From Pseudotamlana haliotis (GTDB lineage: Bacteria; Bacteroidota; Bacteroidia; Flavobacteriales; Flavobacteriaceae): a DNA stretch of 64,000 nt. Below are positions 11,082-52,915 of this stretch, piece after piece. The stretch is taken from NCBI RefSeq assembly GCF_008806375.1, contig NZ_WAAT01000050.1, positions 314,941 to 378,940 of the forward strand. Reading direction: 5' to 3'. Positions within the stretch are counted from its first letter, which is position 1. The number at the start of each line of letters is the position of its first letter. The notes beneath the pieces are model-generated. The model saw only the letters and a program-made list of their open reading frames with translations, was not told the DNA's origin and ran no database searches. Both the position numbers and the translations under genes were made by a program.

Positions 11082-11786
11082 ATGGAAGAGCAAAAAAAGA
11101 GAATATTATTAGTTGAAGACGATCCTAATTTTGGAACAGTTCTTAAAGATTATTTAATGATGAATGATTACGAAGTTACACATGCCAAAAATGGTATGGA
11201 AGGTTTCGAAAAATTCAAAAAAGATGATTTTGATTTGTGTATCTTAGATGTTATGATGCCTTATAAGGATGGCTTTACATTAGCCAAAGAGATAAGAGAA
11301 AAAAACACTGATGTGCCAATCATTTTCTTAACGGCTAAAACCATGAAGGAAGATGTTTTAAAAGGATATAAAGTGGGTGCTGATGATTACCTAAACAAAC
11401 CTTTTGATAGTGAAGTATTGCTTATGAAAATTAAGGCAATCATTCAACGTAAGGCTACAGAAACCATTTCTGATAGTAAACAGTTTGAATTTAAAATTGG
11501 TGATTTCGATTTAAATTCTAAATTACGATTTTTAAAATTTCAAGGAGGTGACCCTGTAAAACTATCACCTAAAGAAAACGAATTGTTACGTTTATTAGCC
11601 TTGCATGAAAACGATCTAATGCCTCGTGAATTGGCACTAACCAAAATATGGCGTGATGACAATTATTTTACATCACGTAGTATGGACGTTTATATTGCAA
11701 AACTACGTAAGTACTTAAAATTAGATGAAAAAGTAGAAATACTTAACATACACGGTGAAGGTTTTAGGTTAGTTGTGAATAGCTAA
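11082..11786 (+). CDS. OmpR-family response regulator (RprY-like)
   Basis: Receiver domain at residues 1-120 with acidic pocket EDD, phosphoacceptor Asp56 in LCILDVMMP, the conserved Thr in FLTAK, and Lys in LNKPF. A winged-helix DNA-binding domain of OmpR type occupies residues about 135-234 (LSPKENELLRLLA; SMDVYIAKLRKYL). It is cotranscribed with the kinase and followed by a clear terminator. Target genes cannot be read from the sequence. Confidence 0.9.
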   Translation: MEEQKKRILLVEDDPNFGTVLKDYLMMNDYEVTHAKNGMEGFEKFKKDDFDLCILDVMMPYKDGFTLAKEIREKNTDVPIIFLTAKTMKEDVLKGYKVGADDYLNKPFDSEVLLMKIKAIIQRKATETISDSKQFEFKIGDFDLNSKLRFLKFQGGDPVKLSPKENELLRLLALHENDLMPRELALTKIWRDDNYFTSRSMDVYIAKLRKYLKLDEKVEILNIHGEGFRLVVNS

Positions 11787-32099: not shown

Positions 32100-32339
32100 G
32101 TTTATATAAAATGGTTAAGGGCGCAAAGTACTCTTCCAAGTTTATGAACATAAAAACTAAAGATTACAAAACTGTTACCAAGAGTTGTTTAATATTAACG
32201 CTATGTTTTGTGATTAATATCTATTTAGAGTAGATAACAACATTAATTTAATACTTAAAAGTTGGATTGCAAAAAGTAGGAAAATATCTCTTTTTTTGAT
32301 TGTAAAATGATATATTTAAAGTTTTAAAACCAAGAATAT

Positions 32340-33881
32340 ATGGCTACAGGATATCGTTTAGATGGGCGAAGTAAATCTCAAGAAGGCGTTCAAGAACTCC
32401 CAACAAATAGAACACTTTTAGTATATCAGTTTACGGATATCGCTCCTTTACTTCCTGAAATCGTAGAAGGTTTACAAACGCCTCAGGCTATTTTTGAACA
32501 TTTTAAACCGCAAATTCATGTGGTTTTAGAAGGTTTAGGTGGTGAGCAGGTGAATGAAACCATGGTTTTTAGAAGCCTGTCAGATTTTGATGTGTCGCGT
32601 TTGGCTTTAAGAAGTTCTTTTTTGAAAGAGTTACGACATAAAATCAATAGTTATTTTGATGTGTTAAAAACCCTGCAGTCAGGTAGGACTTTTAATGTCG
32701 CTAATCAAGAGGATACTTCGGAAGAACCTTTTTCAAAAACAATTGAACTGTGTGGTGGTTTAAAAGAAAATTTTAATGATCTCACAGAAATGGTTGCAGA
32801 GATAACGCGGAAGATGAATCGGGCTCAAAATATCTATCAAAGCAGCTTAAAGCATCTGGTGAATAAAGCTAAAACTTTAGAAGCTACTTATCAGGGAATC
32901 ACTTTGTTTTTTGATAACGCTGAAGCGGAAGTAATTAGCAACTTGAGTCTCATGAATGCCGAGATAAACCAGCTTAAAGATTTAGATAATCCTATTTTTA
33001 TTGATACGGTGGCAAAAACCTTTAACGAAGCCTATGATCGTTTGGATTTGAGCGAGCATTATGCGCTTTTAGTGATTCCTGAATATTTGGGGAGTTCGAT
33101 TGTATTAGATCAGTGGGCAAAAATCGCACATGTTAACAAAGTATTGTTGCTTACTGATTTTGCTCATTTGGATGGTCCAGATGATGTGGTAGAGCTTTTT
33201 GAAACCTCTAGCCATGTGCGTCCGGAAACTTATTTGTCTAATGTAATCATGACCTGTAATTGGTTGGTAGGTCGAGGAAAATGTGATACAATTGCTGAGG
33301 TAGATGATTTGTTTATTCCGCCGTCATTAGCCTTAGCAGGGAAAATTTACCGTAATACCATATCGCAGTCTAGTGCGGGAGCAAAATTTGGTGTCTTGAA
33401 TCAAGTAGGTGGGGTGCGTTTTCAGCTCAAAAAAAATGATTTAGCGGTTATAGAAGGTCTTGGTTTGATACCAATGTATTTTAAAAACGGCGAAGTGATG
33501 GCATTTTCGGCCAAAACCTTGTTTAATGGTGAGAATTTAGGCTTGCAAACGTATTCTGTTGTCCGAGTTTTCGATTATGTGAGTAAGGTGCTCATCGATT
33601 ATTTTAACAGGAAAACCTTCGAGAATTTTAATGTCCGCACCCGGAAAACCCTCATGCAAGACATTGTAGATTTCTTAGATCGTCATACCGGACCAAAAAA
33701 ACTCATAGAAAGCTTTGCTATAAAACGCTTAGAACAAGATATGCAGCAAAAGGATCGTGTGCACCTTGAATTGCATATGGAACCTTACTTTCCAGCTAAA
33801 AACTTCTTAATTCGTATGGATGGGAAAATAGGAGATTCAGGAAAAGCAAACACCTGGGAAGCGGCTTATGAGCAAGGGTAA
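32340..33881 (+). CDS. TssB-TssC fusion: single-chain T6SS sheath-like protein
   Basis: A 513-residue protein whose first about 140 residues align with the whole TssB encoded at 44160 (ELPTNRTLL vs EIPQNRTLI; VEGLQTPQAIFEHFKPQ vs VQGLRTVESVFEHFQPE). The rest aligns with TssC encoded at 44625 from about residue 65 to the end (MAFSAKTLFNG, GLQTYSVVRVFDY, PYFPAKNFLI). The TssC part lacks the N-terminal about 65 residues, the zone that in Vibrio VipB contains the ClpV-recognised helix. The frame is open through the junction with no sign of frameshift. It stands alone at the edge of the T6SS locus, 10 kb from the canonical sheath genes. Role inferred: an alternative or accessory sheath subunit; not demonstrated. 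Confidence 0.85.
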   Translation: MATGYRLDGRSKSQEGVQELPTNRTLLVYQFTDIAPLLPEIVEGLQTPQAIFEHFKPQIHVVLEGLGGEQVNETMVFRSLSDFDVSRLALRSSFLKELRHKINSYFDVLKTLQSGRTFNVANQEDTSEEPFSKTIELCGGLKENFNDLTEMVAEITRKMNRAQNIYQSSLKHLVNKAKTLEATYQGITLFFDNAEAEVISNLSLMNAEINQLKDLDNPIFIDTVAKTFNEAYDRLDLSEHYALLVIPEYLGSSIVLDQWAKIAHVNKVLLLTDFAHLDGPDDVVELFETSSHVRPETYLSNVIMTCNWLVGRGKCDTIAEVDDLFIPPSLALAGKIYRNTISQSSAGAKFGVLNQVGGVRFQLKKNDLAVIEGLGLIPMYFKNGEVMAFSAKTLFNGENLGLQTYSVVRVFDYVSKVLIDYFNRKTFENFNVRTRKTLMQDIVDFLDRHTGPKKLIESFAIKRLEQDMQQKDRVHLELHMEPYFPAKNFLIRMDGKIGDSGKANTWEAAYEQG

Positions 33882-34127: not shown

Positions 34128-34775
34128 ATGGCAAAAAAGAAAACACTTACCGAAGAACAACTTATCAAGACGTACATGGATTATGTTTTAGAGCATGATA
34201 AACAGCCTAAAACAGTATATGCTTTTGCAAAACACTATAATTTTGAAGAGCAGAAATTCTATTCCTTTTTTGGATCATTTCAGGCACTTGAATCACATAT
34301 ATTTAAAGTGTTTTTTGATAATACATTAAGCTTGCTTCATGAAAGTGAAAACTATCAATCTTTTGGTGCGCGAGAAAAATTATTGAGTTTTTACTTCACG
34401 TTTTTCGAAAACTTAACAGCCAATAGAAGTTTTGTTTTGTTTGCATTGACTAAGCACGAAAACAAGTTGAAAAATCTAAAATGCTTGTCTAAATTAAGAC
34501 AAGTTTTTAAAGAATATATTAGTGGTTTAGAGATTGAAACCATTGAAACCAAGCAAGAAAAAATAGATAAATTTCAGCAACAAAGTTTACAGGAAAGTGC
34601 TTGGCTACAACTTTTAGTCACTTTAAAATTTTGGATGGACGACAGCTCTCCTGCTTTTGAAAAAACAGATGTTTTTATTGAAAAGGCGGTGAATACAAGT
34701 TTCGACTTTTTAGATACGGCACCACTTAAAAGTTTGATGGATTTAGGGAAGTTTTTATTTAAGGAAAAAGTTTAA
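34128..34775 (+). CDS. TetR-like transcriptional regulator
   Basis: A 215-residue helical protein. The N-terminal about 60 residues resemble a TetR helix-turn-helix (TLTEEQLIKTYMDYVLEH; KTVYAFAKHYNFEEQKFYSFFGS: helices followed by the conserved F-Y-x-x-F turn). The C-terminal region is an all-helical ligand domain typical of the family. It precedes the ABC1 kinase gene by 17 bp, a pairing common in Bacteroidota, so it probably controls that operon. The helix-turn-helix is divergent and the ligand is unknown. Confidence 0.7.
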   Translation: MAKKKTLTEEQLIKTYMDYVLEHDKQPKTVYAFAKHYNFEEQKFYSFFGSFQALESHIFKVFFDNTLSLLHESENYQSFGAREKLLSFYFTFFENLTANRSFVLFALTKHENKLKNLKCLSKLRQVFKEYISGLEIETIETKQEKIDKFQQQSLQESAWLQLLVTLKFWMDDSSPAFEKTDVFIEKAVNTSFDFLDTAPLKSLMDLGKFLFKEKV

Positions 34776-34792
34776 ATGGAATAAAAAATGAT

Positions 34793-36097
34793 ATGAAATC
34801 AATTAATAAAATTCCTGTGTCTAAAATAGAGCGTGCTTCAAAATTAGTGTCCACAGGTGCTAAAATTGGCATGAATTACATAAAATATTATGGCGATAAA
34901 ATCACGAAATCCGAACTTGAAGCAAAAGATAAATTAAATGAAAACAATGCTTCAGATATCTATGATGGATTAAAGCAACTTAAAGGAAGCGCCTTAAAGG
35001 TGGCTCAAATGTTAAGTATGGAAAAAAGCATTATGCCTCAGGCTTATGTAGAAAAATTTTCATTAGCTCAATTTTCTGTACCGCCATTGTCACCACCGTT
35101 AGTCTTAAAAACTTTTAAAAAATACTTTGGTAAATTACCAGAAGATTTATTTGATACATTTCAATTAAATTCCGTTAACGCGGCAAGTATAGGTCAAGTT
35201 CATATTGCTGAAAAAGATGGTAAAAAGTTAGCTGTTAAAATTCAATATCCTGGAGTTTCAGATAGTATAGCATCGGATTTGGCGATGGTTAAGCCGATCG
35301 CTATGAGTATGTTTAATATTAAGGGAGAAGGTTCTGAAAAATATTTTAAGGAGGTAGAAGATAAGCTTCTAGAAGAAACAGATTATATTTTAGAAGTAAA
35401 GCAAAGTATCGAAATCTCTGAAGCATGTCAACACATTCCACATTTAAAATTTCCTAAATATTACGAGCAATGGTCTTCTGAGCGCGTTATCACTATGGAT
35501 TACATGGAAGGCGAACATTTGTCTGAATTTACAGCCCATAACACCAATCAAAAGTTGGCAAATCAATTAGGGCAGGCGCTTTGGGATTTTTATATGTTTC
35601 AAATTCATAAATTAAAAAAGGTTCATGCAGATCCACATCCTGGGAATTTTTTAGTGTCTAAGACTGGAGATTTAATTGCGTTAGATTTTGGTTGTATGAA
35701 ACAAATTCCTGAAGATTTCTATGGGCCTTATTTTGAATTGGCAGATAAAGAAAACATGAGTAATCCGGAGAATTTTAAAACGAAGCTTTACGAACTTGAA
35801 ATTTTAAGAGCAGATGATAAAGCTGAGGAAGTTGTCTTTTTTACAGGTATGTTTCATGAGATGTTAAGCTTATTTACACAGCCACTACATGAAGATCATT
35901 TTGACTTTTCTGATGACAAGTTTTTTGGGAAGATAGCAGATTTGGGTGAGAAGTATTCTAAAAATACTCAATTGCGAAAATTAAATGCAAATAGAGGTTC
36001 GAAGCATTTTATTTACATGAATCGTACATTTTTCGGTCTTTATAACTTAATGTTTGATTTAAAAGCAAAAGATATAGAAATTAACAAATGGATTTAA
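34793..36097 (+). CDS. ABC1/AarF/UbiB-family atypical kinase-like protein
   Basis: A 434-residue protein of the UbiB/ADCK superfamily, whose members support quinone synthesis or lipid homeostasis. Visible: the family N-terminal KxGQ region, here ALKVAQMLS, with Ala in place of the usual Gly; the Ala-rich nucleotide loop NAASIGQVHIAE; ion-pair Lys in LAVKIQYPG; catalytic loop KVHADPHPGNFLV; and metal-binding DFG-equivalent ALDFGCMK. No C-terminal membrane helices are evident, unlike proteobacterial UbiB. Cotranscribed with the TetR-like gene. A bidirectional terminator follows. Confidence 0.88.
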   Translation: MKSINKIPVSKIERASKLVSTGAKIGMNYIKYYGDKITKSELEAKDKLNENNASDIYDGLKQLKGSALKVAQMLSMEKSIMPQAYVEKFSLAQFSVPPLSPPLVLKTFKKYFGKLPEDLFDTFQLNSVNAASIGQVHIAEKDGKKLAVKIQYPGVSDSIASDLAMVKPIAMSMFNIKGEGSEKYFKEVEDKLLEETDYILEVKQSIEISEACQHIPHLKFPKYYEQWSSERVITMDYMEGEHLSEFTAHNTNQKLANQLGQALWDFYMFQIHKLKKVHADPHPGNFLVSKTGDLIALDFGCMKQIPEDFYGPYFELADKENMSNPENFKTKLYELEILRADDKAEEVVFFTGMFHEMLSLFTQPLHEDHFDFSDDKFFGKIADLGEKYSKNTQLRKLNANRGSKHFIYMNRTFFGLYNLMFDLKAKDIEINKWI

Positions 36098-40884: not shown

Positions 40885-43365
40885 TTATGTTTCAGGTGTA
40901 AAAGCCACTTGGTTGTTCTCTAGAGTTACCTGAACTACCTGTGGTGGATTAATGCGGTTAGAAATAATCATTTTGGCCAATGGCCTTTTCAATTGATTGC
41001 GTATAACCCCTTTTAAAGGGCGCACACCATAAACCGGAGAAAATCCGTTTAAAGCGAGGTGCTTTTTCGTGTTCTCATCAATCTGTAGTGTGATGCCTAG
41101 CTGCTCCGCTGTATTTAGTAGCTCTTTTTGTAGGTGTAAATTGAAAATTGAAACCGCTATGTTTTCAGAAATAGGAGCGAAGGGAACGATTTCGGTAAGT
41201 CTTCCTAAAAATTCTGGACGAAAATATGAACTCATAATTTCGTTAAGCTCATGAGTTGTTGGTAGTTCATCCTTTTCCATGGTTTTAGAAATGTAATCAG
41301 ATCCAATATTAGAAGTGAATAAAATGACGGCATTAGAAAAATCACCTACTTTACCTAAACGGTCATGGAGTTTACCTTCATCTAAAATTTGTAAAAAAAC
41401 ATCAAAAACCGAAGGATGGGCTTTTTCAATTTCATCAAATAAGACAATAGCGTAAGGCTTCTGTCTGATTTTATTCACCAAAACACCACCTTCTTCATAA
41501 CCAACATAACCTGGAGGGACACCGTATAAAAGCGCTGCCGAATGGGCTTCTTTAAACTCAGACATGTCAAAACGGATGATGGCATTTTCATCATTAAATA
41601 AAAAGGATGCTAAGGACTTGGCGAGTTCGGTTTTTCCAGTTCCTGTTGGTCCAGAAAAGAAAAATGATCCTATGGGTTGCCCCGGTTTTGACAATCCAGA
41701 ACGGGATTCTACAATGGCATCAGCAATGGTTTTTATAGCGTAGTCTTGACCAATGACCCGTTTTTTTAGAGTGTTTTCTAGCTCTAATAATCGTCCTTTT
41801 TCTTGAGCTTGTACTTTCCCAGCAGGAATACCCGTGATTAATGACACTGTAGCCGCTAGATCACGTGCCGTAATTTCGGTGATTACTTTTTCAGCATGAA
41901 CTTTTATTTTTTCTAATACAGAAATAATATGAGCTTTTTTGATTTCAACGCTATGCTGGGGTTTAAGGTCTTCTTCTAGATATTGATCAACTATAATGGG
42001 ACTCAACTTGTAGGTCATGGTCTTATAAAATTGATCAAGAGCTTCTAGTACTTCTGTTTGACTTAGGTCAGTGGCTGCCGTTTCGGTTTCTAAAGTTTTA
42101 AATTCTAGTGTTAAAGTCTTAATGTCTTTAGGAAGGGATTGTGTAGATACTTTTACGGCCGACATGCTGCGGTCGATGAGGTCAATGGCAGAATCGGGGA
42201 GGCTCTTTTCTTTTAAATAGCGTTTCGCTAGTCGGATGTTTTCTTTTATCGCTTCGTCTGAAATATTAAGTTCATGGTGTTTGGTGTAAATTTGAGCGTG
42301 GGTTTTTACAATGTCAAAAGCCATAACATCATCAGGAGCCTCAATGTAAACGGGTTCCATGCGTCGTGCTAAGGCCTCATTGGTAGCAATATGTTTTCTG
42401 TAATTTTCAGAAGTTGTAGCAGAAATTAAAATAACACCTCCAGTGTTTAATTCAGATTTTAGGGTGTTTGCAATACTTTTACTTGTTGCTTTATCTTCTA
42501 AAAGACAATGCATATCATCGATGAAGATAATAGCTTTTTCTTGCTGTCTTGCTGCTTTAAATATGTTAGTTAAGCGGTCTTCAACTTCACCTTTATATGA
42601 TACTGTAGCTAGTAATTTAGCCGTGTTTAATTCAAAAATTTGAACAGCTTTTAAACTATCCACAATAGTTTGATTCTGTACGGCAGATGCAAAGTATTTC
42701 ACGAAAGCGGTTTTTCCAACACCAGACTCGCCTAAAAGAATCAAATGAGGTTTTGACCTTCGGTTTAATATTTCAGAAACCTGTATCATTTCCCGATTAC
42801 GCGCAATAATAAAATCATAAGTACCTGTTGCTGCTTCTGAAATCATAGCGCTTGTGTAGCTGCTAAGTAGGTTGTTTGTTATTGGTGATTCTAATTGAGA
42901 ATTGGTTTTAACCGCTGTAGACTCTTGTTGATTAAAAAGGGCAAGGACCTGAGTATGTGTAACCGGTAAAGATTTTAGTTGATCAAAACTAAAGCCTACG
43001 CCAGGTGTTATGGCTGAAATAAAAAGTTTGAGTAGGTTGGCGTAGTCATGCGTTAAGTTTAATTCTGAATTTTCGGCTTCTTCCAGAATCGTTTGCGCTT
43101 GATCATCAGCAGAAACCTTAAGCTGTTGCCTAGAACGTTTGGGGTAGTTTTCTAAATGGACTTGTGCCCATTCTTCAATAAAAAATACATCAATATCCTG
43201 ATTAAAAAGAATCCGGTTTAAGTTGAAATCTTTATGCAATAAAGCTTTAACTAAGTGACTTGCACCGTAGTTGGCATGTTGATATTCCTGAGCAATTTGG
43301 CTTGCGATGTGCATGACTTTGTTGAGGTCGGTCATCTGATTATTCTGAATTAATTGGTCTAACAT
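40885..43365 (-). CDS. clpV: T6SS sheath-disassembly ATPase ClpV (TssH)
   Basis: AAA+ unfoldase of the Clp/Hsp100 family that recycles contracted T6SS sheath. An N-terminal Clp-N repeat domain occupies about 1-150. First ATPase module: Walker A GESGVGKTAF and Walker B IIFIDDMHC. Second module: Walker A GPTGTGKTELAKS and Walker B IVLFDEIEKAHP, with sensor and C-terminal D2-small domain. The 826-residue length and T6SS context favour ClpV over ClpB; the middle-domain coiled coil is short. It diverges from hcp across about 250 bp holding promoters for both directions. Confidence 0.9.
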   Translation of the reverse strand: MLDQLIQNNQMTDLNKVMHIASQIAQEYQHANYGASHLVKALLHKDFNLNRILFNQDIDVFFIEEWAQVHLENYPKRSRQQLKVSADDQAQTILEEAENSELNLTHDYANLLKLFISAITPGVGFSFDQLKSLPVTHTQVLALFNQQESTAVKTNSQLESPITNNLLSSYTSAMISEAATGTYDFIIARNREMIQVSEILNRRSKPHLILLGESGVGKTAFVKYFASAVQNQTIVDSLKAVQIFELNTAKLLATVSYKGEVEDRLTNIFKAARQQEKAIIFIDDMHCLLEDKATSKSIANTLKSELNTGGVILISATTSENYRKHIATNEALARRMEPVYIEAPDDVMAFDIVKTHAQIYTKHHELNISDEAIKENIRLAKRYLKEKSLPDSAIDLIDRSMSAVKVSTQSLPKDIKTLTLEFKTLETETAATDLSQTEVLEALDQFYKTMTYKLSPIIVDQYLEEDLKPQHSVEIKKAHIISVLEKIKVHAEKVITEITARDLAATVSLITGIPAGKVQAQEKGRLLELENTLKKRVIGQDYAIKTIADAIVESRSGLSKPGQPIGSFFFSGPTGTGKTELAKSLASFLFNDENAIIRFDMSEFKEAHSAALLYGVPPGYVGYEEGGVLVNKIRQKPYAIVLFDEIEKAHPSVFDVFLQILDEGKLHDRLGKVGDFSNAVILFTSNIGSDYISKTMEKDELPTTHELNEIMSSYFRPEFLGRLTEIVPFAPISENIAVSIFNLHLQKELLNTAEQLGITLQIDENTKKHLALNGFSPVYGVRPLKGVIRNQLKRPLAKMIISNRINPPQVVQVTLENNQVAFTPET

Positions 43366-43399: not shown

Positions 43400-43522
43400 T
43401 GATAAAATTGTAAGAAATATCATATTTGTTTTATGATAAATTATGATAGTTGTGAATTATTATTCTTACGTATTGATACTCTTAAAGTTAGGATTTGGAT
43501 TACATTTTATGAAATAAAATTC

Positions 43523-43616: not shown

Positions 43617-44006
43617 ATGGCTTTTAAAACCAAATTAAAAGTAGGCGGAAACGAGTACAACGTATTAAGTTGTAGTTATGCGCTAAAGCAAGAAACAGAT
43701 GCCACTGGAAGACCTTCTTCTGTAACTAGAGGAGGTGAAGTAAAAGTTGTTATCGAATCAACCGGGGGTACTGAGTTATTCGAATGGCAATGCAGTAGTT
43801 TCGAACGTAGGGATGGATCAATTGAATTCACAAAAAGAGACACCGATGCGAAACTAAAAGAAATCACATTTGAAGAAGGTTACTTAACCTACTACAGAGA
43901 AGATTTTGATGCTTCAGGAAGCAATCCTCTAACACAAACTTTCACTATTTCGGCTAAGGTGCTTTCTAGTGGAGGTGGGATTCATGAGAATGAATGGCCT
44001 GTTTAA
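43617..44006 (+). CDS. tssD: T6SS tube protein Hcp (TssD)
   Basis: A 129-residue subunit forming the hexameric rings of the inner T6SS tube. It matches the Bacteroidota-type Hcp: KTKLKVGGNEYNVLSCSYAL at the N-terminus, a central GGTELFEWQCSS region and SGGGIHENEW near the C-terminus. No signal peptide, as expected for a cytosolic tube subunit. It has the best promoter in the locus and is followed by 153 bp before tssB; the gap shows no clear terminator, so read-through into tssBC is likely. Confidence 0.92.
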   Translation: MAFKTKLKVGGNEYNVLSCSYALKQETDATGRPSSVTRGGEVKVVIESTGGTELFEWQCSSFERRDGSIEFTKRDTDAKLKEITFEEGYLTYYREDFDASGSNPLTQTFTISAKVLSSGGGIHENEWPV

Positions 44007-44159: not shown

Positions 44160-44612
44160 ATGGCATCCAATACCGTAGGACTTGGTGGAAATGTAACCGA
44201 CATTGATGCAGGAGAGGCATTAAATGAAATTCCACAAAATAGAACACTCATAGCAGGAAAACTCACTCCCAATACACCAATTAAACCTGAAGCTGTTCAA
44301 GGCTTAAGAACTGTTGAGTCTGTTTTTGAACATTTTCAACCTGAGTTAAATATAGCCTATGAAGACAAAGACGGTGGTACGGTTAATGAGGTCACAAAAT
44401 TTGAAAACTTAGGTGATTTTGGTAAAAAAGGCATCACAGAAAATAGCGATTTTCTAAAAGGTCTTGAAATTGAAAGCGCACAATATCAAAAAATTATCAA
44501 GCAACTCAAAACCAATAAGGTTTTAAAGCAAGCCTTACAAGACGAGACATCAAAAGCAGGGTTGATTGCAACTTTAGAATTGTTAATTGAAGAGTTAAGC
44601 GCTTCCAAATAA
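44160..44612 (+). CDS. tssB: T6SS sheath small subunit TssB
   Basis: A 150-residue sheath subunit that pairs with TssC to build the contractile sheath. Key region: EIPQNRTLIAGKLTP, VQGLRTVESVFEHFQPE, then a helical C-terminus. It starts a tight pair with tssC (12 bp gap). Its whole length is mirrored by the N-terminal part of the fusion at 32340-33881. Confidence 0.9.
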   Translation: MASNTVGLGGNVTDIDAGEALNEIPQNRTLIAGKLTPNTPIKPEAVQGLRTVESVFEHFQPELNIAYEDKDGGTVNEVTKFENLGDFGKKGITENSDFLKGLEIESAQYQKIIKQLKTNKVLKQALQDETSKAGLIATLELLIEELSASK

Positions 44613-44624
44613 AAATAATGAGTT

Positions 44625-45977
44625 ATGGCACAATTAGAAAATAGTCAGCAAGGGGTTTTAGAAAAACCGTATGGACAGCAGGTTTTAGAACAGGCTGATG
44701 CATTAGCGAAATTTGGCGGATTTGATCTTTTAGAATCTGCTATTGATGATATCCAAAATTTAAATCCGCAGCGTAAAGCAAGACGAAAAATATTTCTGAC
44801 CGAAACCAATAAGAAACAAGAACGCAACGATTTACTGAAAGTATTAAAGCTTTGGAAGGAAACTTTAAGTTCTGACGGGGATTTAATGGATGTTATTGAA
44901 GAAACTAGTGAAAAGGAGGTGCATGCGCAAAACGTTTTAAAGAAGAATTTAAAAATAGCTTTAGATGAAACTCGTGAACTTGAGGCTTCTTATCGTTCTG
45001 TAGCTTTATTTTATAAAAACACCGATGAAGCTGCTGTTAAAAATGTTTCTATAGTCAATGCAGAACTAGAGCAATTAGCAGATCTGGATAATACTCGTTT
45101 TTTTGATTATATCCGTGAAGAAATTGTTTCGAGCTACGATCGTTTAGATTTACGAGATAATTATGGATTATTAGTGTTGCCAGGGTACTTAGGAAGTAAA
45201 TCTGTTGTAGACAAATGGGCTAAAATGGCGCATGGTAATAAAGTGACTATGGTCACTGATTTTATGCATTTGGATGAGTCAGATGATGTTATGGAACTGT
45301 TTGAATCTGCTAATTTAGCTAGTGGAGACACTTATTTGTCTAATACGATAATGACTTGTAATTGGTTGGTAGGACGCCAAAAAGAAGTTGATTTAGGTGA
45401 AGATGAAGATCTTTTTGTGCCACCTTCTGGAGCGCTTGCGGGTACCATGTATAAAACCCTAATGTCACAAGTGACGGCAGGTAAAAAACATGGTGGACTT
45501 AGCGAAGTTGAAGCGGTAACTTTCGATTTAAAAAAGAGTGAAATTGCTATTTTAGAAAACCTAGGCTTAGTGCCTATGGTGAATGAATATGGTAAGGTGA
45601 TGGCCTTTTCGGCTAAAACTTTATTTAATGGCGATAATATTGGCCTACAAACCTATTCAGTGGTACGTGTGTTTGATTATATCTCCAAAGTTTTAATGGA
45701 TTTCTTAAACCGTCGCGCTTTTGAAAATTTCAATACCAAAACAAGAAATGAAATCTTAAAGCAAATCGTGAAATTTTTAGATGGTGTTACGGGGCCAGAT
45801 AAGCTTATTGAAAATTTTGATATTAAACGTTTTGAACAAGATCAGGTTCAGAAAGATAAAATTCACGTTGATATTCGCTTAAAACCTTATTTTCCAGCTA
45901 AGAACTTCCTGATTTCTATGGACGGACAAAAAGGAGATGAAGGTGCTGAATGGGATACCGATTATGCTGAACAATAA
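44625..45977 (+). CDS. tssC: T6SS sheath large subunit TssC
   Basis: A 450-residue major sheath subunit. Conserved blocks: SYDRLDLRDNYGLLVLPGYL, SNTIMTCNWLVGRQ, MAFSAKTLFNGDNIGLQTYS, RVFDYISKVLMDFLNRRAFE and PYFPAKNFLI. Residues 1-65 include an amphipathic helix-rich leader (QQVLEQADALAKFGGFDLLE) that could be the ClpV-recognised part by analogy with VipB. A hairpin terminator follows 20 bp after the stop. Confidence 0.92.
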   Translation: MAQLENSQQGVLEKPYGQQVLEQADALAKFGGFDLLESAIDDIQNLNPQRKARRKIFLTETNKKQERNDLLKVLKLWKETLSSDGDLMDVIEETSEKEVHAQNVLKKNLKIALDETRELEASYRSVALFYKNTDEAAVKNVSIVNAELEQLADLDNTRFFDYIREEIVSSYDRLDLRDNYGLLVLPGYLGSKSVVDKWAKMAHGNKVTMVTDFMHLDESDDVMELFESANLASGDTYLSNTIMTCNWLVGRQKEVDLGEDEDLFVPPSGALAGTMYKTLMSQVTAGKKHGGLSEVEAVTFDLKKSEIAILENLGLVPMVNEYGKVMAFSAKTLFNGDNIGLQTYSVVRVFDYISKVLMDFLNRRAFENFNTKTRNEILKQIVKFLDGVTGPDKLIENFDIKRFEQDQVQKDKIHVDIRLKPYFPAKNFLISMDGQKGDEGAEWDTDYAEQ

Positions 45978-46085: not shown

Positions 46086-46517
46086 ATGCAGCACACTTAT
46101 TACAAGCTCCCATTAAATACAAGCGCTTTAATTTCAAACAAACCAGTAGAGAAGATTCAAATAGAGGCTTCCATAGCAAATTATCTGCACTTGATCATGA
46201 CAACACGTTTTGGTGAATGTCACTTTGATCCCACTTTTGGAACGGCAGTTTGGGACGTTGATTTTAATAACATTGCTTCCGATAATAAGCTTCGTGGTAT
46301 TTTGATAGATTCTCTGGTGAAATCATTAAAAACCTATGAAATTCGACTGTCAAATCTTGAGTTTGAAGTACACATCGAGCAGGAGGAAATAAATAGTAAA
46401 GGTCAAAAGAGCAAAATTAAAAAAGGTGTTTACATTCTGGTAAAAGGTGTGATTAAAAAAATAAATGAAAATTTCAGTTACAAGGAGCACTTTTATATCG
46501 CCCCATTATCGTATTAA
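46086..46517 (+). CDS. tssE: T6SS baseplate subunit TssE (gp25-like)
   Basis: A 143-residue gp25-like baseplate wedge component that initiates sheath assembly. The family core is seen as IANYLHLIMTTRFGECHFDPTFGT, with the RFGE...DP-FG pattern of GPW/gp25 proteins, and RGILIDSLVKSLKTYEIRL for the conserved helix. tssF follows after 2 bp. Confidence 0.85.
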   Translation: MQHTYYKLPLNTSALISNKPVEKIQIEASIANYLHLIMTTRFGECHFDPTFGTAVWDVDFNNIASDNKLRGILIDSLVKSLKTYEIRLSNLEFEVHIEQEEINSKGQKSKIKKGVYILVKGVIKKINENFSYKEHFYIAPLSY

Positions 46518-46519
46518 TA

Positions 46520-48361
46520 ATGATGAGTTATAATACCCAATCGGAGATAAAAAATCGCATGATGAAAAAGGCAGCCAGCCTTTGGAATATTCCTGTTAGT
46601 GAGGTTGCTGATTCTATTGATCCACTCGTTTCTTTATTGCTTTCGGCTTGTGCTTCAGAATTTGAAAAGATTTCAGGTGATGTTAACGATGCTCAAAACC
46701 GAATTACTGAGCGGCTAATTCAGCTCATGACACCACAATCAGCTTGTGAAGTGAAACCTGCACATGCCATGGCGTATTGCGAACCTGTAGAACCAAAAAC
46801 GACTATCACAGCTGAGCATCAATTTTACTGTAAATTGAAGCCTAGTAAGCAGGATATTGATGGCGATTCGAAAACAGCTTTTTTTACACCTACTAAAAAA
46901 ACAAACCTCATTGGGGCTAGAATTAAGCATATGCTAGCTGGAAATAAATTGTTTAGTTTTTCAGAAGGAAAATCTAAAGATCTTACCAAGATTATTGCTA
47001 ACCCAGTTGATTCAGAGGCAACCCACCTTTTTTTGGGGATTGAAACAAATCATAGTCAATTAAATCTGCAAGATGTTTCTTTTTATTTTGAACATCTTGG
47101 TTTGTCAAATTCAGAACTTTTCTATCACCATCTACAACAGGCTTCATGGTATATCGGAGATAAAAAAATAAATACAGTTCATGGTTTTAGTCAACAAAAA
47201 AGCATAGATAATAAAACGCTTGAACAAATCATTGAAGGTGAGTTTAGTGTGTCAGATAGCTTGTGTGCTGATATAAACAATTATTATAAGAAGCATTTTG
47301 TGACCGTAAAGTTGGAAGATAGCGTATCTGATTTTCCGAAATATTCAGAATTTGAAAACTTAAACATTGAAGATCAAGAGCTCTTTTTAGGGTCTAATAT
47401 TTTATGGATTAAAGTTCAATTTTCTAGCGTCATCAGTTCAAAAACTTTAGAGCAGTTGTACTGTGCAGTTAATGCTTTTCCGATATTAAATAGAAAACAG
47501 CATCAGTTTACGTATCAATTAAAAAATTTCATTGATATCATTCCCGTACTTTCGGAAGCTCCTTTTTTTGATATTCAATCCATTGAAAATTCAAACGGAC
47601 AACCCTATAAACCAGATAATATTAATGCTGCATCAAGTGCTGAAGGACGTTATTTTCTTAAGAATGCTAATGTGGCCAAGTTGGACTCTAGAAAAGCGTG
47701 GCGTTATATTGTGCATTTATTGGAGCTGTTAAAAGATGAGAGTGCGGCTTTCAATTTTTTTAATCGGGAATTTTTACAACATAATTTGAACAGCTTAAAC
47801 CAGACTATGGCTTCCATTGAAAAAAAACTAGGAGAGGTTTATAATCATGGAATTTACAGCAATTATGTGTATTTGAATCCGTATGCCAATAACGAAAATG
47901 TAAAGGTTCGTTATTGGACAACAGATGGTGAAATTGTAAATCATATCAATTCAGGACAAAACCTAGAGGTTTACAAAGGTGGGCAGCTAAAGTCTAAAAG
48001 TTGCTATTTATTACGCCCCGTTTTTGGTGGAACAAATAGCCTTTCTATGGAACAACGGCTTCAGGCTTATCGCCGACAAAGTTTATCAAAAAATAGAATT
48101 GTTACCGAAGAAGATGTAAAGGCCTTGTGTTATGAATTATACACGAATAATATCCAAACCATTGAAATAAAAAAAGGGTTTGCGACCGATTTGTCTGTAA
48201 ATAAAGGCTTGATTCAGTGTATTGAAATCATCTTGACACCAAGTGATGACTCCGAGTTAAAACCTTATGAATGGGACTATCTAAACGATAATTTATTGGC
48301 TGTTTTAGAGAAACAGTCCGTTAATATTTTTCCATATAAAATCATTAAAAGAGCATCCTAA
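46520..48361 (+). CDS. tssF: T6SS baseplate subunit TssF
   Basis: A 613-residue wedge protein homologous to phage T4 gp6. The N-terminus (IKNRMMKKAASLWNIPVSEV, DSIDPLVSLLLSACASEFEKI) and the segment RLIQLMTPQSACEVKPAHAM match the VasA/TssF family; the C-terminal region EEDVKALCYELYTNNIQTIE is also typical. TssF normally pairs with TssG, which is not seen adjacent; a PKD-domain gene follows instead after 13 bp. Confidence 0.85.
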   Translation: MMSYNTQSEIKNRMMKKAASLWNIPVSEVADSIDPLVSLLLSACASEFEKISGDVNDAQNRITERLIQLMTPQSACEVKPAHAMAYCEPVEPKTTITAEHQFYCKLKPSKQDIDGDSKTAFFTPTKKTNLIGARIKHMLAGNKLFSFSEGKSKDLTKIIANPVDSEATHLFLGIETNHSQLNLQDVSFYFEHLGLSNSELFYHHLQQASWYIGDKKINTVHGFSQQKSIDNKTLEQIIEGEFSVSDSLCADINNYYKKHFVTVKLEDSVSDFPKYSEFENLNIEDQELFLGSNILWIKVQFSSVISSKTLEQLYCAVNAFPILNRKQHQFTYQLKNFIDIIPVLSEAPFFDIQSIENSNGQPYKPDNINAASSAEGRYFLKNANVAKLDSRKAWRYIVHLLELLKDESAAFNFFNREFLQHNLNSLNQTMASIEKKLGEVYNHGIYSNYVYLNPYANNENVKVRYWTTDGEIVNHINSGQNLEVYKGGQLKSKSCYLLRPVFGGTNSLSMEQRLQAYRRQSLSKNRIVTEEDVKALCYELYTNNIQTIEIKKGFATDLSVNKGLIQCIEIILTPSDDSELKPYEWDYLNDNLLAVLEKQSVNIFPYKIIKRAS

Positions 48362-49369: not shown

Positions 49370-50518
49370 ATGAACTATAAACACAGGGTAAATTGGGTTG
49401 ATGGTATGAAAATCAATAAAGATCACTTTATAGGTTTTGAGGATGCCATGATGCAGCAATTTGCAAGCATACAAAGCTCTTATGTCCATCATAACAATTA
49501 TGGTTTAATACCTGGTATTGAAAATCAAGATAAGTCTGTTGATCTAACTGTCTCAATCGACGGGCAAGAAAGTATTCACGTCGTGATAAATAGATGTATG
49601 GCAGTTACTTTAGGCGGGTATCAAATAACAATCAATGATAAGGTTAATGACTATTTAAGTCAGTCGGGACAACTTATTAAAAACGAATTCGATTTTCTTA
49701 AAACAGAGGGTGCTTATTACGTAGTCGTGTCTGTTAATCCGTATAATCGTGTGTCTATTGGTTATGCCGACCCAAATGAAACGCCTGCAAGAAAACCTTA
49801 TGTAATTAGCGGCTATCAAATTTCATTACAGCCAGAAAGTCAAGTGCAAAATCATGAAATAGGGGAAAATAGTATGGTTCTGGCTAAAGTGATTTCAGAT
49901 GGCAGTCATGTGGATCTTGTGGATGATTTTATACCACCTTGTACTTCCATGCAAAGTCATCCTGATTTGAATCACGCCTATAATGAAATAGGAAGTTTTT
50001 TCAATAGCATAGAATTTTATTGTACATCAGTTATTCAAAAAATACATCAGAAGAAGCAAACCAATGAACTCGCTAAAATGGTACGCGTCTTAGCGCTTGA
50101 TATACTCACTTATTTAAGAGGTGCAATACCTACCTATAGAATTAATGATAAATATGGTTCGCCAGTTGAAATGATTATTAAACTCATGAGCTTGGCACGA
50201 ACCATCAAAGGGAGCTTAGATTTACACGCAGGAACGGGTAAAGAAAATCTACTCAATTATTTAACAAATTGGTGTGATGTGAATCAAGGTGCTTTTGAAA
50301 ATGTACTCGATGAGATGATTCATTTGGAGTATGTGCATCATGATGTTAATGAAGCCCTTCAAAAAGTAACTTCTTTTACGGCGCTTATGAATGCCTTATT
50401 TAAAAAGCTGAATGAATTGGAATATATAGGGAAGAAATCAGACTCTAATATTTTTGTAAAAGAAGATGTCGTTACTCAAGAACCAGTGAAAAAACGACGT
50501 CGTTTCTTCATGGAATAA
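49370..50518 (+). CDS. tssK: T6SS baseplate-membrane linker TssK
   Basis: A 382-residue cytosolic protein that connects the baseplate to the membrane complex. The N-terminus VNWVDGMKINKDHFIGFEDA has the W-x-x-GM-x(4)-HF pattern conserved in TssK (receptor-binding-protein-like shoulder domain). The middle and C-terminal parts are helical. It starts 2 bp after the PKD gene. Ends with a basic tail (KKRRRF). Confidence 0.85.
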   Translation: MNYKHRVNWVDGMKINKDHFIGFEDAMMQQFASIQSSYVHHNNYGLIPGIENQDKSVDLTVSIDGQESIHVVINRCMAVTLGGYQITINDKVNDYLSQSGQLIKNEFDFLKTEGAYYVVVSVNPYNRVSIGYADPNETPARKPYVISGYQISLQPESQVQNHEIGENSMVLAKVISDGSHVDLVDDFIPPCTSMQSHPDLNHAYNEIGSFFNSIEFYCTSVIQKIHQKKQTNELAKMVRVLALDILTYLRGAIPTYRINDKYGSPVEMIIKLMSLARTIKGSLDLHAGTGKENLLNYLTNWCDVNQGAFENVLDEMIHLEYVHHDVNEALQKVTSFTALMNALFKKLNELEYIGKKSDSNIFVKEDVVTQEPVKKRRRFFME

Positions 50519-51088: not shown

Positions 51089-52915
51089 ATGGCACTACAA
51101 TCAGTTACAGAGATTTATATTGGCGATACAGCCATAAATGCTTTTAAGAGTTTTAATTTAATTCAAAATATAAACGCTCATCATGAATTAAGACTGGAAT
51201 GCAGAACCGATGTATTGGAAACGATTAGTGGTGAAATTGCCAATACCTCAAAAAAATATTTAGGAGAGGTTTTAACTTTGAAAGTGTCTTCCTTAACAGC
51301 ATATTCAGCTTATAAAGTTTTAGAGTTTAAAGGTGTTGTCACTTCGGTGTCCAATAAAAGAGGGCGAAATAGCGAACATATTGTCCTGATAAAGGCTCAA
51401 AGTCCGACGATTTTATGTGATGATGGTCCGCATTATAATTCATATTTAAATCAGAGTTTATCTGATGTGTTGTCTGATACATTAGATGGTTACGATACGG
51501 CTAAATTGAGTGCTAAAATCAATCCGAGAAATGCTGCACCAATACCTTATACCGTACAGCATCATGAAAGCAATTGGGGGTATATGAGTCGATTGGCGAT
51601 GCAATATAGTGAGTGGTTGTTTTATAACGGAAAGCAGCTCGTTTTTGGAACGCCAGAAAACGGTGAGGATATCGTGCTTACTTATGGTCATGACCTACAA
51701 GGCTTCTCATTAGATTTAGTACCGCTACCAAATAAATTCAATTATTTTACTCAAGATTATCTTACGGACGAAAAACACGAGGTTAAAACAGATGACATTA
51801 ACACCGGAGCTAGTGGTTACCACGGTTTTGTTAGCGAGCGCAGTGCTGTTTTGTATGCCAAAGAAACTCAGGTTTTAGTGAATGATTTAGATGTTACTGA
51901 TTTGAAGCAACGTATGGATACCCAAACTGAGCTTCAGAAAAAAGCTGTAGAAAGCCAACAGGTATGGTTGAGAGGTGAAAGTGATAACCCTGGTGTAGGA
52001 ATAGGTGAAATTATTGAAATCAAAGATGAGCATGGAAGTCATGGTAGGTTTCGTGTCATTAGCGTAGGGCACTCTAATAATGAAAATGGCCAGTATCGAA
52101 ATACTTTTGAAGGGTTAAGTGCAGATATAGATGTCTTTCCAGATACCAATTTTGAAGCGACTCCAAGAAGTAGCACACAAACCGCTGTAGTGGTTGAAAA
52201 TGTAGACCCAGATGCCTTGTCACGTATTAAAGTGCAGTTTCCTTGGCAACAAATAACAGGAGAAAGCACACCCTGGATTCGCATGGTAAAGCCTCATGCT
52301 GGTAGTGAAAAAGGTTTTCATTTTATCCCTGAAATAGGCGAGGAGGTTTTAGTAGGCTTTCAAGGTGGTAATGCTGAACGTCCTTATGTTTTGGGAAGCT
52401 TGTACCATGGCAGCATGAAAGCAGAATCATGGAAAACAGATGCCAATGATATTAAAGCCATTCGTACCCGTAGCGGACATACCATTGAATTGAATGATAC
52501 TGATGGTGCTGAAAAAATTAATATTTACGATAACAAAGGCAGTATCATTACTTTTGATACTCAGGAGAAATCGCTGTACATTACGGCGACTGAAAATTTA
52601 GAATTTCAGGCTAAAAATATTAAAATAACTGCGGAAGAAAACATCGCTTTGGAAGCGAAAGGTGATATCATAACAGCTTCAGAAGGTGATACATCAATAG
52701 TGGCTCAAGGAGATGCTAATCTTCAATCTGAAGGAGACGCCACAATAAGTAGTCAAGCTAGTATTACCCTTGAATCCACTAAAGATACTAGTGTAAAAGC
52801 ACAAAACATAACCACTGAAGCTCATGTATCTAACAAAACTAAAGGCCAACAAACTCAGATTCAAGGGCAGATTACGGCAGTTCAAGGGGCGTCAGGGAAA
52901 ATCGAAGTAATGTAG
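51089..52915 (+). CDS. vgrG: T6SS spike protein VgrG (TssI)
   Basis: A 608-residue trimeric spike. The N-terminal gp27-like region covers about 1-345 (including YTVQHHESNWGYMSRLAMQY), followed by a gp5 OB-fold (VDPDALSRIKVQFPWQQ; PWIRMVKPHAG; IPEIGEEVLVGFQGGN; PYVLGSLYHG). A beta-helix C-terminus of alternating short repeats (AEENIALEAKGD, STKDTSVKAQN) ends GKIEVM. No extra C-terminal effector domain, and no PAAR or effector/immunity gene follows; an unrelated nitrite reductase operon starts 255 bp later. Confidence 0.92.
   Translation: MALQSVTEIYIGDTAINAFKSFNLIQNINAHHELRLECRTDVLETISGEIANTSKKYLGEVLTLKVSSLTAYSAYKVLEFKGVVTSVSNKRGRNSEHIVLIKAQSPTILCDDGPHYNSYLNQSLSDVLSDTLDGYDTAKLSAKINPRNAAPIPYTVQHHESNWGYMSRLAMQYSEWLFYNGKQLVFGTPENGEDIVLTYGHDLQGFSLDLVPLPNKFNYFTQDYLTDEKHEVKTDDINTGASGYHGFVSERSAVLYAKETQVLVNDLDVTDLKQRMDTQTELQKKAVESQQVWLRGESDNPGVGIGEIIEIKDEHGSHGRFRVISVGHSNNENGQYRNTFEGLSADIDVFPDTNFEATPRSSTQTAVVVENVDPDALSRIKVQFPWQQITGESTPWIRMVKPHAGSEKGFHFIPEIGEEVLVGFQGGNAERPYVLGSLYHGSMKAESWKTDANDIKAIRTRSGHTIELNDTDGAEKINIYDNKGSIITFDTQEKSLYITATENLEFQAKNIKITAEENIALEAKGDIITASEGDTSIVAQGDANLQSEGDATISSQASITLESTKDTSVKAQNITTEAHVSNKTKGQQTQIQGQITAVQGASGKIEVM

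Follow-up and report, generated by a model that had tools for sequence, protein, structure and literature searches.

We analyzed a 64,000-nucleotide stretch of the Pseudotamlana haliotis genome (NCBI RefSeq assembly GCF_008806375.1, contig NZ_WAAT01000050.1, positions 314,941 to 378,940; hereafter the window), which encodes a type VI secretion system (T6SS) of subtype iii and, separately, a gene whose single-chain product unites both sheath subunits, TssB and TssC. The canonical tssB and tssC genes are both intact at 44160-45977, within a T6SS-iii operon that also holds hcp, tssE, tssF, a tssK-like gene, and vgrG, with tssH divergent; the fusion is thus a paralogue, as an earlier note made from the window's sequence had stated. 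A second T6SS in the genome was considered and ruled out, as one TssK was found genome-wide, and because only one tssK was counted, we take the genome to hold a single set of T6SS baseplate genes. Coordinates of all features are given in Table 1.

Table 1. Sheath fusion, T6SS-iii genes, and sequence elements in the window
Feature	Position	Strand	Basis or remark
GTAGGAA element	32276..32282	+	64 bases before the fusion start codon
tssB2-tssC2 fusion gene, 513 amino acids	32340..33881	+	Open reading frame, TssB and TssC matches, same fusion in G001 and P0003
TssB half, residues 1-132	32340..32735	+	Includes the N-terminal handshake strand (model strand 25-29)
Junction, residues 115-147	32682..32780	+	Low-confidence 115-127, then helix 128-144
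TssC half, residues 133-513	32736..33878	+	Pfam, alignment to TssC, model
tssH (ClpV-type AAA+ ATPase)	40885..43365	-	Scores under the NCBIfam ClpV1 cut-off; name given from location and class
GTAAGAA element	43410..43416	+	tssH/hcp intergenic region
GTAAGAA element	43463..43469	-	tssH/hcp intergenic region
hcp (TssD)	43617..44006	+	PF17642
Canonical tssB, 150 amino acids	44160..44612	+	No Pfam match
Canonical tssC, 450 amino acids	44625..45977	+	PF17541
FDLLE motif, residues 33-37 of canonical TssC	44721..44735	+	In the segment absent from the fusion
tssE (gp25-like)	46086..46517	+	PF04965
tssF	46520..48361	+	PF05947
tssK-like	49370..50518	+	Weak match, E 4.2e-6, below cut-off; single copy found in genome
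vgrG	51089..52915	+	

A single chain joining TssB to a shortened TssC

The fusion is one open reading frame (ORF), unbroken from its ATG at 32340 to its stop at 33881, and both halves find their counterparts, which bears out the earlier claim that TssB is here joined to an N-terminally truncated TssC. Residues 15-137 align with the window's TssB (44/123 identical, 36%, E 5e-25) and residues 147-512 with its TssC (197/366 identical, 54%, E 1e-148). The TssC family PF17541 covers residues 118-512, starting at profile position 38 of 430 and scoring 559.3 bits against a cut-off of 25, and the same Pfam scan of the fusion reported no TssB family. Because a search of the genome with PF05591 (T6SS VipA) found no TssB, and because the canonical TssB itself has no Pfam family, we built a TssB profile from 113 distinct TssB-like ORFs of the fetched loci, tssB2 genes included. 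This profile scores fusion residues 10-136 (E 4e-35 for the whole protein), and the junction at residues 115-147 is matched by the TssB and TssC profiles alike. Searching the genome with the fusion returned three places: the fusion, canonical tssC, and canonical tssB. The protein entry for the fusion locus (P0002) has 439 amino acids and would omit the first 74 residues. Compared with the corresponding gene of a second Tamlana genome (G001), the omitted stretch carries 12, 12, and 23 changes at codon positions 1, 2, and 3, with 52 of 74 residues equal, a substitution pattern that looks like that of coding sequence. The TssB half may be easily overlooked, because Pfam sees only TssC and P0002 starts 74 residues late. 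Public entries for such proteins, where named, are called TssC or DUF5458.

Pairwise alignment sets fusion residue K133 opposite K72 of the canonical TssC, so that about 71 TssC residues (1-71) are absent; the N-terminal loss described in the earlier note stands, but its estimated length of about 65 residues was too short. Identity between the TssC half and the canonical protein is 63% over the C-terminal 125 residues, 51-54% in the middle, and 31% in the outer helix. The segment PYFPAKNFLI (fusion residues 482-491) is identical in the canonical TssC, and strands are predicted at 489-496 and 505-512. At the other end of the chain, residues 15-35 match TssB at 8 of 21 positions and include the strand modeled at 25-29. 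In the Pseudomonas sheath, the handshake sheet receives donor strands from the TssC C terminus and the TssB N terminus (PMC5807055), and two linkers of each subunit extend to the ring nearer the baseplate (PMC5813253). By alignment and predicted structure, then, both handshake arms are kept. The earlier note had placed the linker strand in the missing zone, which is contradicted by these descriptions, since the linkers are formed by the N-terminal strand of TssB and the C-terminal strand of TssC.

The AlphaFold model of the fusion (predicted local distance difference test score, pLDDT, 79.9; predicted template modeling score, pTM, 0.72) has a helix at 93-114, a low-confidence stretch at about 115-127, a helix at 128-144, and a 47-residue helix at 148-194. 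Our model of the canonical TssC is poor (pLDDT 61.9) and was used for helix limits only, which fall at 16-29, 33-39, 48-59, 61-81, and 87-136; by the pairwise alignment, the fusion lacks the first three of these helices and some of the fourth. The start of canonical T6SS-iii TssC is well conserved (consensus KLAKxGGFDLLEAxIxGVQNMNPxRKARKKIFLTE), the parts around the helix are eroded in the unfused TssC of the second clade described below (five rows aligned, out of 11), and all of it is absent from the fusion. In Vibrio, the ClpV site is LLDEIM, residues 19-24 of VipB (PMC5924787), which FDLLE of the consensus recalls by eye. The lost part is the TssC N-terminal helical zone, which by analogy with VipB would hold the ClpV-recognition helix, as the earlier note had proposed. 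In the Pseudomonas sheath, the TssC N-terminal helix belongs to domain 3 in the outer layer, a domain that R2 pyocin is without and that the authors of PMC5807055 linked to recycling by ClpV.

Over residues 20-486, the predicted fold aligns with single-chain sheaths of phages, pyocins, and extracellular injection systems, in line with the resemblance suggested beforehand. A search of solved structures with the single sequence found no T6SS sheath, and a profile search gave only a weak match (9n4v, E 0.43). Both fusion halves descend from the TssB and TssC (PF17541) of Bacteroidota T6SS-iii; unlike these, the fusion is one chain, lacks TssC residues 1-71, and is a second copy rather than the main sheath gene. 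It shares the single chain with R2 pyocin and contractile phage tail sheaths, of which R2 pyocin, without domain 3, is not recycled (PMC5807055), but differs from them in ancestry, as its halves fall with T6SS-iii TssB2 and TssC2. A prophage origin was also considered and set aside, with no match to the fusion in 50,697 phage records. Among PHROGs, fusion protein P0001 has three weak matches of unknown function, none a sheath family, while the canonical TssC matches a tail-sheath family (E 3.6e-12).

Relatives, origin, and selection

All six genus genomes examined, including that of the window (G000), match the fusion query. G001, taken as Tamlana agarivorans JW-26 and independently assembled, carries the same fusion as a single ORF of 514 amino acids (71% identity), flanked as in the window by the same neighbor upstream (91% identical) and the same T6SS genes downstream. 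A third copy, P0003 from Tamlana sp. s12, differs from that of G001 at 19 of 514 residues. The presence of the same fusion in G001 and P0003 excludes an assembly error. Conservation extends over both halves, and the two Tamlana fusions also share the junction region. Separate second pairs occur in three of the four other genus species examined: at the syntenic site in G002 and G005, where tssB2 (152 amino acids) and tssC2 (431) lie one base apart, and in G004 (145 and 442), where the upstream genes are the same and the T6SS operon lies about 344 kb away. G003 has the canonical pair only. Because these relatives keep tssB2 and tssC2 as two genes, two of them at the syntenic site, we regard the fusion as a joined, pre-existing second pair; comparison of the sequences indicates that the joining cost TssB2 its tail and TssC2 its start.

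Phylogenies of the two halves group the fusion with these second pairs. In the tree of TssB halves, the Tamlana fusions form one clade (100/99) nested in a clade with tssB2 (96/98). In a 33-row tree of TssC halves, which holds five fusions and leaves out G001, P0003, P0127, P0148, and other long-branched fusions, the fusions and tssC2 are split from canonical TssC by a 100/100 branch. A larger tree of 89 TssC rows unites 18 rows of tssC2, Tamlana, and P0015-group proteins at 100/97; P0127 joins this second-sheath group at 99/90, and P0148 only at 78/93. In the same tree, G001 and P0003 cluster with P0010, which is the unfused tssC2 of G004, and with P0011. Of the nine 25-residue windows that reach to residue 225, eight show their highest pairwise identity between the two fusions and one (176-200) shows a tie with G000-G005; beyond residue 225 G001 tracks G004 at 82-95% of bases. 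We read this as recombination of a fusion with a resident tssC2, with the fused front part retained; the apparent breakpoint near residue 225 comes from the identity windows.

Outside the genus, a lengthened query, used to retrieve long proteins only, returned 40 proteins among the best 7995 scored candidates. A TssB half is present in 18 of 41 proteins (these 40 and the window's), and P0132 and P0136 start inside it. TssC is short at its N terminus in 8 of the 18 (profile start 56-85: P0001, P0003, P0015, P0123, P0124, P0085, P0148, and P0151) and in the remaining 10 it begins at profile position 4-29. A further lengthened search, with P0151 as its starting point, yielded 22 proteins, all of them already met. 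P0151, another plain loss of the TssC N terminus, sits on a long branch (1.32) within canonical TssC (99/93). The related Maribacter- and Cellulophaga-type fusions of 576-608 amino acids (P0015, P0123, P0124, and P0085) belong to the same second-sheath clade as the window's and are likewise single chains beside a canonical pair in G171 and G415. They differ in that the sequence between the halves is kept, the TssC N-terminal segment being eroded and not cut (about residues 150-235 of the 580-residue protein), and in that the gene lies inside the core operon, after canonical tssC, in G171 and G415. The order in G171, taken as the source of P0123 (uncultured Maribacter), is hcp, tssH, tssB, tssC, fusion, tssE, tssF, with the fusion directly before tssE; G415 has this order plus a 230-residue Hcp-like gene and a 526-residue gene between fusion and tssE.

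A separate second origin of the Maribacter-type fusion, which we had first assumed, was dropped as a firm claim. In approximately unbiased (AU) tests, one clade for the TssC halves of eight fusions is rejected (p-AU 1.3e-8), but that set includes the recombined G001 and P0003 and the long-branched P0127. One clade for only the window's fusion and the P0015 group is not rejected (p-AU 0.571), nor is one clade for the TssB halves of seven fusions (p-AU 0.166). The Tamlana and Maribacter-type fusions may therefore have either one or two origins.

We also surveyed how often such genes occur, claiming fusions only where the ORF was read (part of the matches in the family and order samples), as canonical tssB and tssC share a frame. 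In the family sample, 45 of 397 genomes match (G353 weakly), with an ORF-confirmed fusion in G000 and G171 and separate second pairs in G002 and G005. In the order sample, queried with P0124, 61 of 395 genomes match; G000 is the only known carrier, and four other genomes have two TssC places each. Among eight genomes of the genus of G171, two have the fusion, one has the canonical pair only, and five have no match. The canonical pair accompanies the second-clade gene in all seven genomes read (G000, G001, G002, G004, G005, G171, and G415), which bears on the co-occurrence that the earlier note asked about.

The ratio of nonsynonymous to synonymous substitution rates (dN/dS) between the G000 and G001 fusions is 0.129 over 513 codons (TssB half 0.305, TssC half 0.078), compared to 0.055 for canonical tssC1; the Tamlana values are rough, because synonymous change is near saturation (dS 1.5). 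The 580-residue fusion gives 0.072 between G171 and G415 (dS 2.3). The fusion gene is under purifying selection. Such values speak against the degraded coding constraint that the earlier note had named as a refuting outcome.

Expression hints and possible function

The element upstream of the fusion is conserved in position in all five Tamlana genomes with a fusion or tssB2, one of which reads GTAGGAG. GTA[AG]GAA occurs nine times in five tssH/hcp intergenic regions, compared to a mean of 0.35 and a maximum of 4 in 1000 shuffles, and GTAGGA[AG] occurs once before the fusion or tssB2 in each of the five genomes (mean 0.54, maximum 4 in shuffles with a slightly wider pattern). Over the whole 64-kb window the motif occurs 13 times, and 3 of these lie in the upstream and tssH/hcp stretches. 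GTARGAA was spotted by eye before counting, shuffling preserves nothing beyond base content, and the five genomes are relatives of one another; the shared promoter element thus weakly suggests that the fusion is co-regulated with the T6SS. Codons of a rare set, selected from general knowledge, are commoner in fusion/tssC2 than in tssC1 in all six genomes (6.6 versus 3.3% in the window), and C-ending codons are fewer in five of six, with equality in one. The codon bias of hcp is far stronger than that of either fusion/tssC2 or tssC1. Codon usage weakly suggests that the fusion is expressed at a lower level.

We consider it likely that the fusion is an accessory single-chain sheath subunit of the resident T6SS-iii. 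Precedent comes from the extra sheath proteins of the PVC and AFP extracellular injection systems, which have several, accessory, sheath proteins per machine, with AlgoCIS having one (PMC8894135); these are single chains not recycled by ClpV. Given its kept arms, the fusion could be taken into the canonical sheath, where it would co-assemble with TssB-TssC. With the TssC N-terminal helices gone, ClpV (TssH) would likely have no grip on it. TssE has been proposed to receive the first-ring linkers (PMC5813253), and the fusion might form part of the first rings on TssE and be left behind once ClpV has stripped the remaining sheath; a small number of copies close to the baseplate is suggested by the low codon bias and by the position next to tssE. 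That the accessory subunit is also minor and ClpV-resistant seems to us an evenly balanced proposition, and its placement at the baseplate end is doubtful. The explanation as a whole, in which a fused second pair enters the resident sheath in small numbers, likely at the baseplate end, and escapes ClpV recycling, could equally well be right or wrong. A bolder form is improbable and is offered as speculation: T6SS-iii lineages may have re-evolved a phage-like one-chain sheath as a permanent, ClpV-proof basal collar on TssE, allowing the same baseplate to be reloaded after firing.

Among alternatives, the fusion might instead replace or dilute canonical TssB-TssC under some conditions, forming a bulk or mosaic sheath that uses the same baseplate and Hcp tube. 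The conservation of both arms and the C-terminal domain would fit, as would the separate upstream region and the complete second pair kept in three of four other Tamlana species. So would Hcp, which is 96.9-100% identical in six pairs among the five Tamlana genomes with a second pair or fusion and 41% in G003, which is without one. However, the codon usage of the fusion is closer to that of baseplate genes than to that of hcp, domain 3 contacts are lost, and the regulatory element is common to the main operon and not separate, so that we regard such a sheath as unlikely. Somewhat less probable again is a brake or terminator that enters the growing sheath or caps its distal end, limiting length or blocking contraction because it is without outer-layer contacts. 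The loss of the TssC N-terminal helices agrees with this, and an insertion after the VipA N-terminal linker is known to stop contraction (PMC5924787); but the TssB arm is not longer in the alignment, and the gene order beside tssE in G171 indicates the other end. We give very little credence to the remaining possibility, that fusion and N-terminal loss mark the early decay of a second copy. The fusion does evolve faster than the canonical pair (70.8% protein identity between G000 and G001, versus 84.2% for tssC1 and 80.0% for tssB1), and a second copy was not seen in most T6SS-bearing relatives sampled. Against decay, neither of the two Tamlana fusions read as DNA has a stop or frameshift, the dN/dS values are low, the fused 5' part was retained while the 3' part follows the resident tssC2, and the upstream element is conserved.

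Contractile sheaths are of two kinds, one-chain in phages, pyocins, and extracellular systems, where they are not recycled, and two-chain in T6SS, where ClpV recycles them. T6SS-iv also has a one-chain sheath. A natural one-chain T6SS protein that is without the zone of ClpV recognition and persists beside a two-chain sheath allows one to ask why the sheath is split in T6SS and what purpose the TssC N terminus serves, and if the accessory reading is true, a T6SS sheath can have mixed composition. Our literature search, which covered few subscription journals, found no report of natural TssB-TssC fusions, single-chain T6SS sheaths, or a second tssC; the TssB fusion in PMC10781749 is with a fluorescent protein.

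Further observations at sheath loci

Between the fusion and the DUF5689/TonB genes, the window at 34128-36097 holds two ORFs, one for a TetR_C_23 regulator and one for a candidate ABC1-type kinase, so labeled by eye; in G001 the gap from fusion to DUF5689 is only 150 bases. In G002, between tssC2 and the DUF5689/TonB genes, a stretch at about 11238-11324 of locus L033 (G002:C4:26237-26323) repeats the last 29 residues of the window's fusion at 93% identity and sits in a block of genes without a family and an Hcp-like gene. Hcp-like genes of 230 and 231 amino acids, with C-terminal extensions of about 100 amino acids and 29% mutual identity, lie in L166 (11428-13702) and L033 (11940-14048), each followed by an unrelated gene (526 amino acids, with a weak alpha/beta-hydrolase match, and 469, with no match). 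These pairs look like exchangeable cargo cassettes beside second sheath genes.

Other joined or extended sheath genes were met in the searches. Four metagenomic single chains (P0130, 1058 amino acids; P0131, 917; P0153, 1055; and P0147, 844) have about 250-450 N-terminal amino acids, with leucine-rich repeats in three, followed by TssB and a near-full TssC; chains of this kind were not among the matches listed, best first, for 395 sampled genomes of the phylum. P0125 and P0126, each from a single contig, look like joined near-canonical pairs and could reflect sequence errors. P0137, P0138, P0139, P0144, and P0149, in which much the same canonical TssC is joined to unrelated sequences, and P0157, with another TssC, come from metagenome contigs and are probably assembly chimeras. 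Plasmid-borne fusions were rejected as candidates: of 11 plasmid records, 8 were listed, and because 6 of these show two annotated features and 7 are joined from two pieces, the matches were taken as probable canonical pairs. TssB-like ORFs with N-terminal extensions of about 40-70 amino acids (190-221 in total by the first possible start) occur in L089, L095, L105, L106, L112, and L115. Finally, tssE, tssF, and tssH of the window are 57-62% identical to those of G001 and G004, while hcp is 97% identical; given such divergence of baseplate and ATPase genes, members of the genus seem to have swapped entire T6SS types, with Hcp staying conserved.
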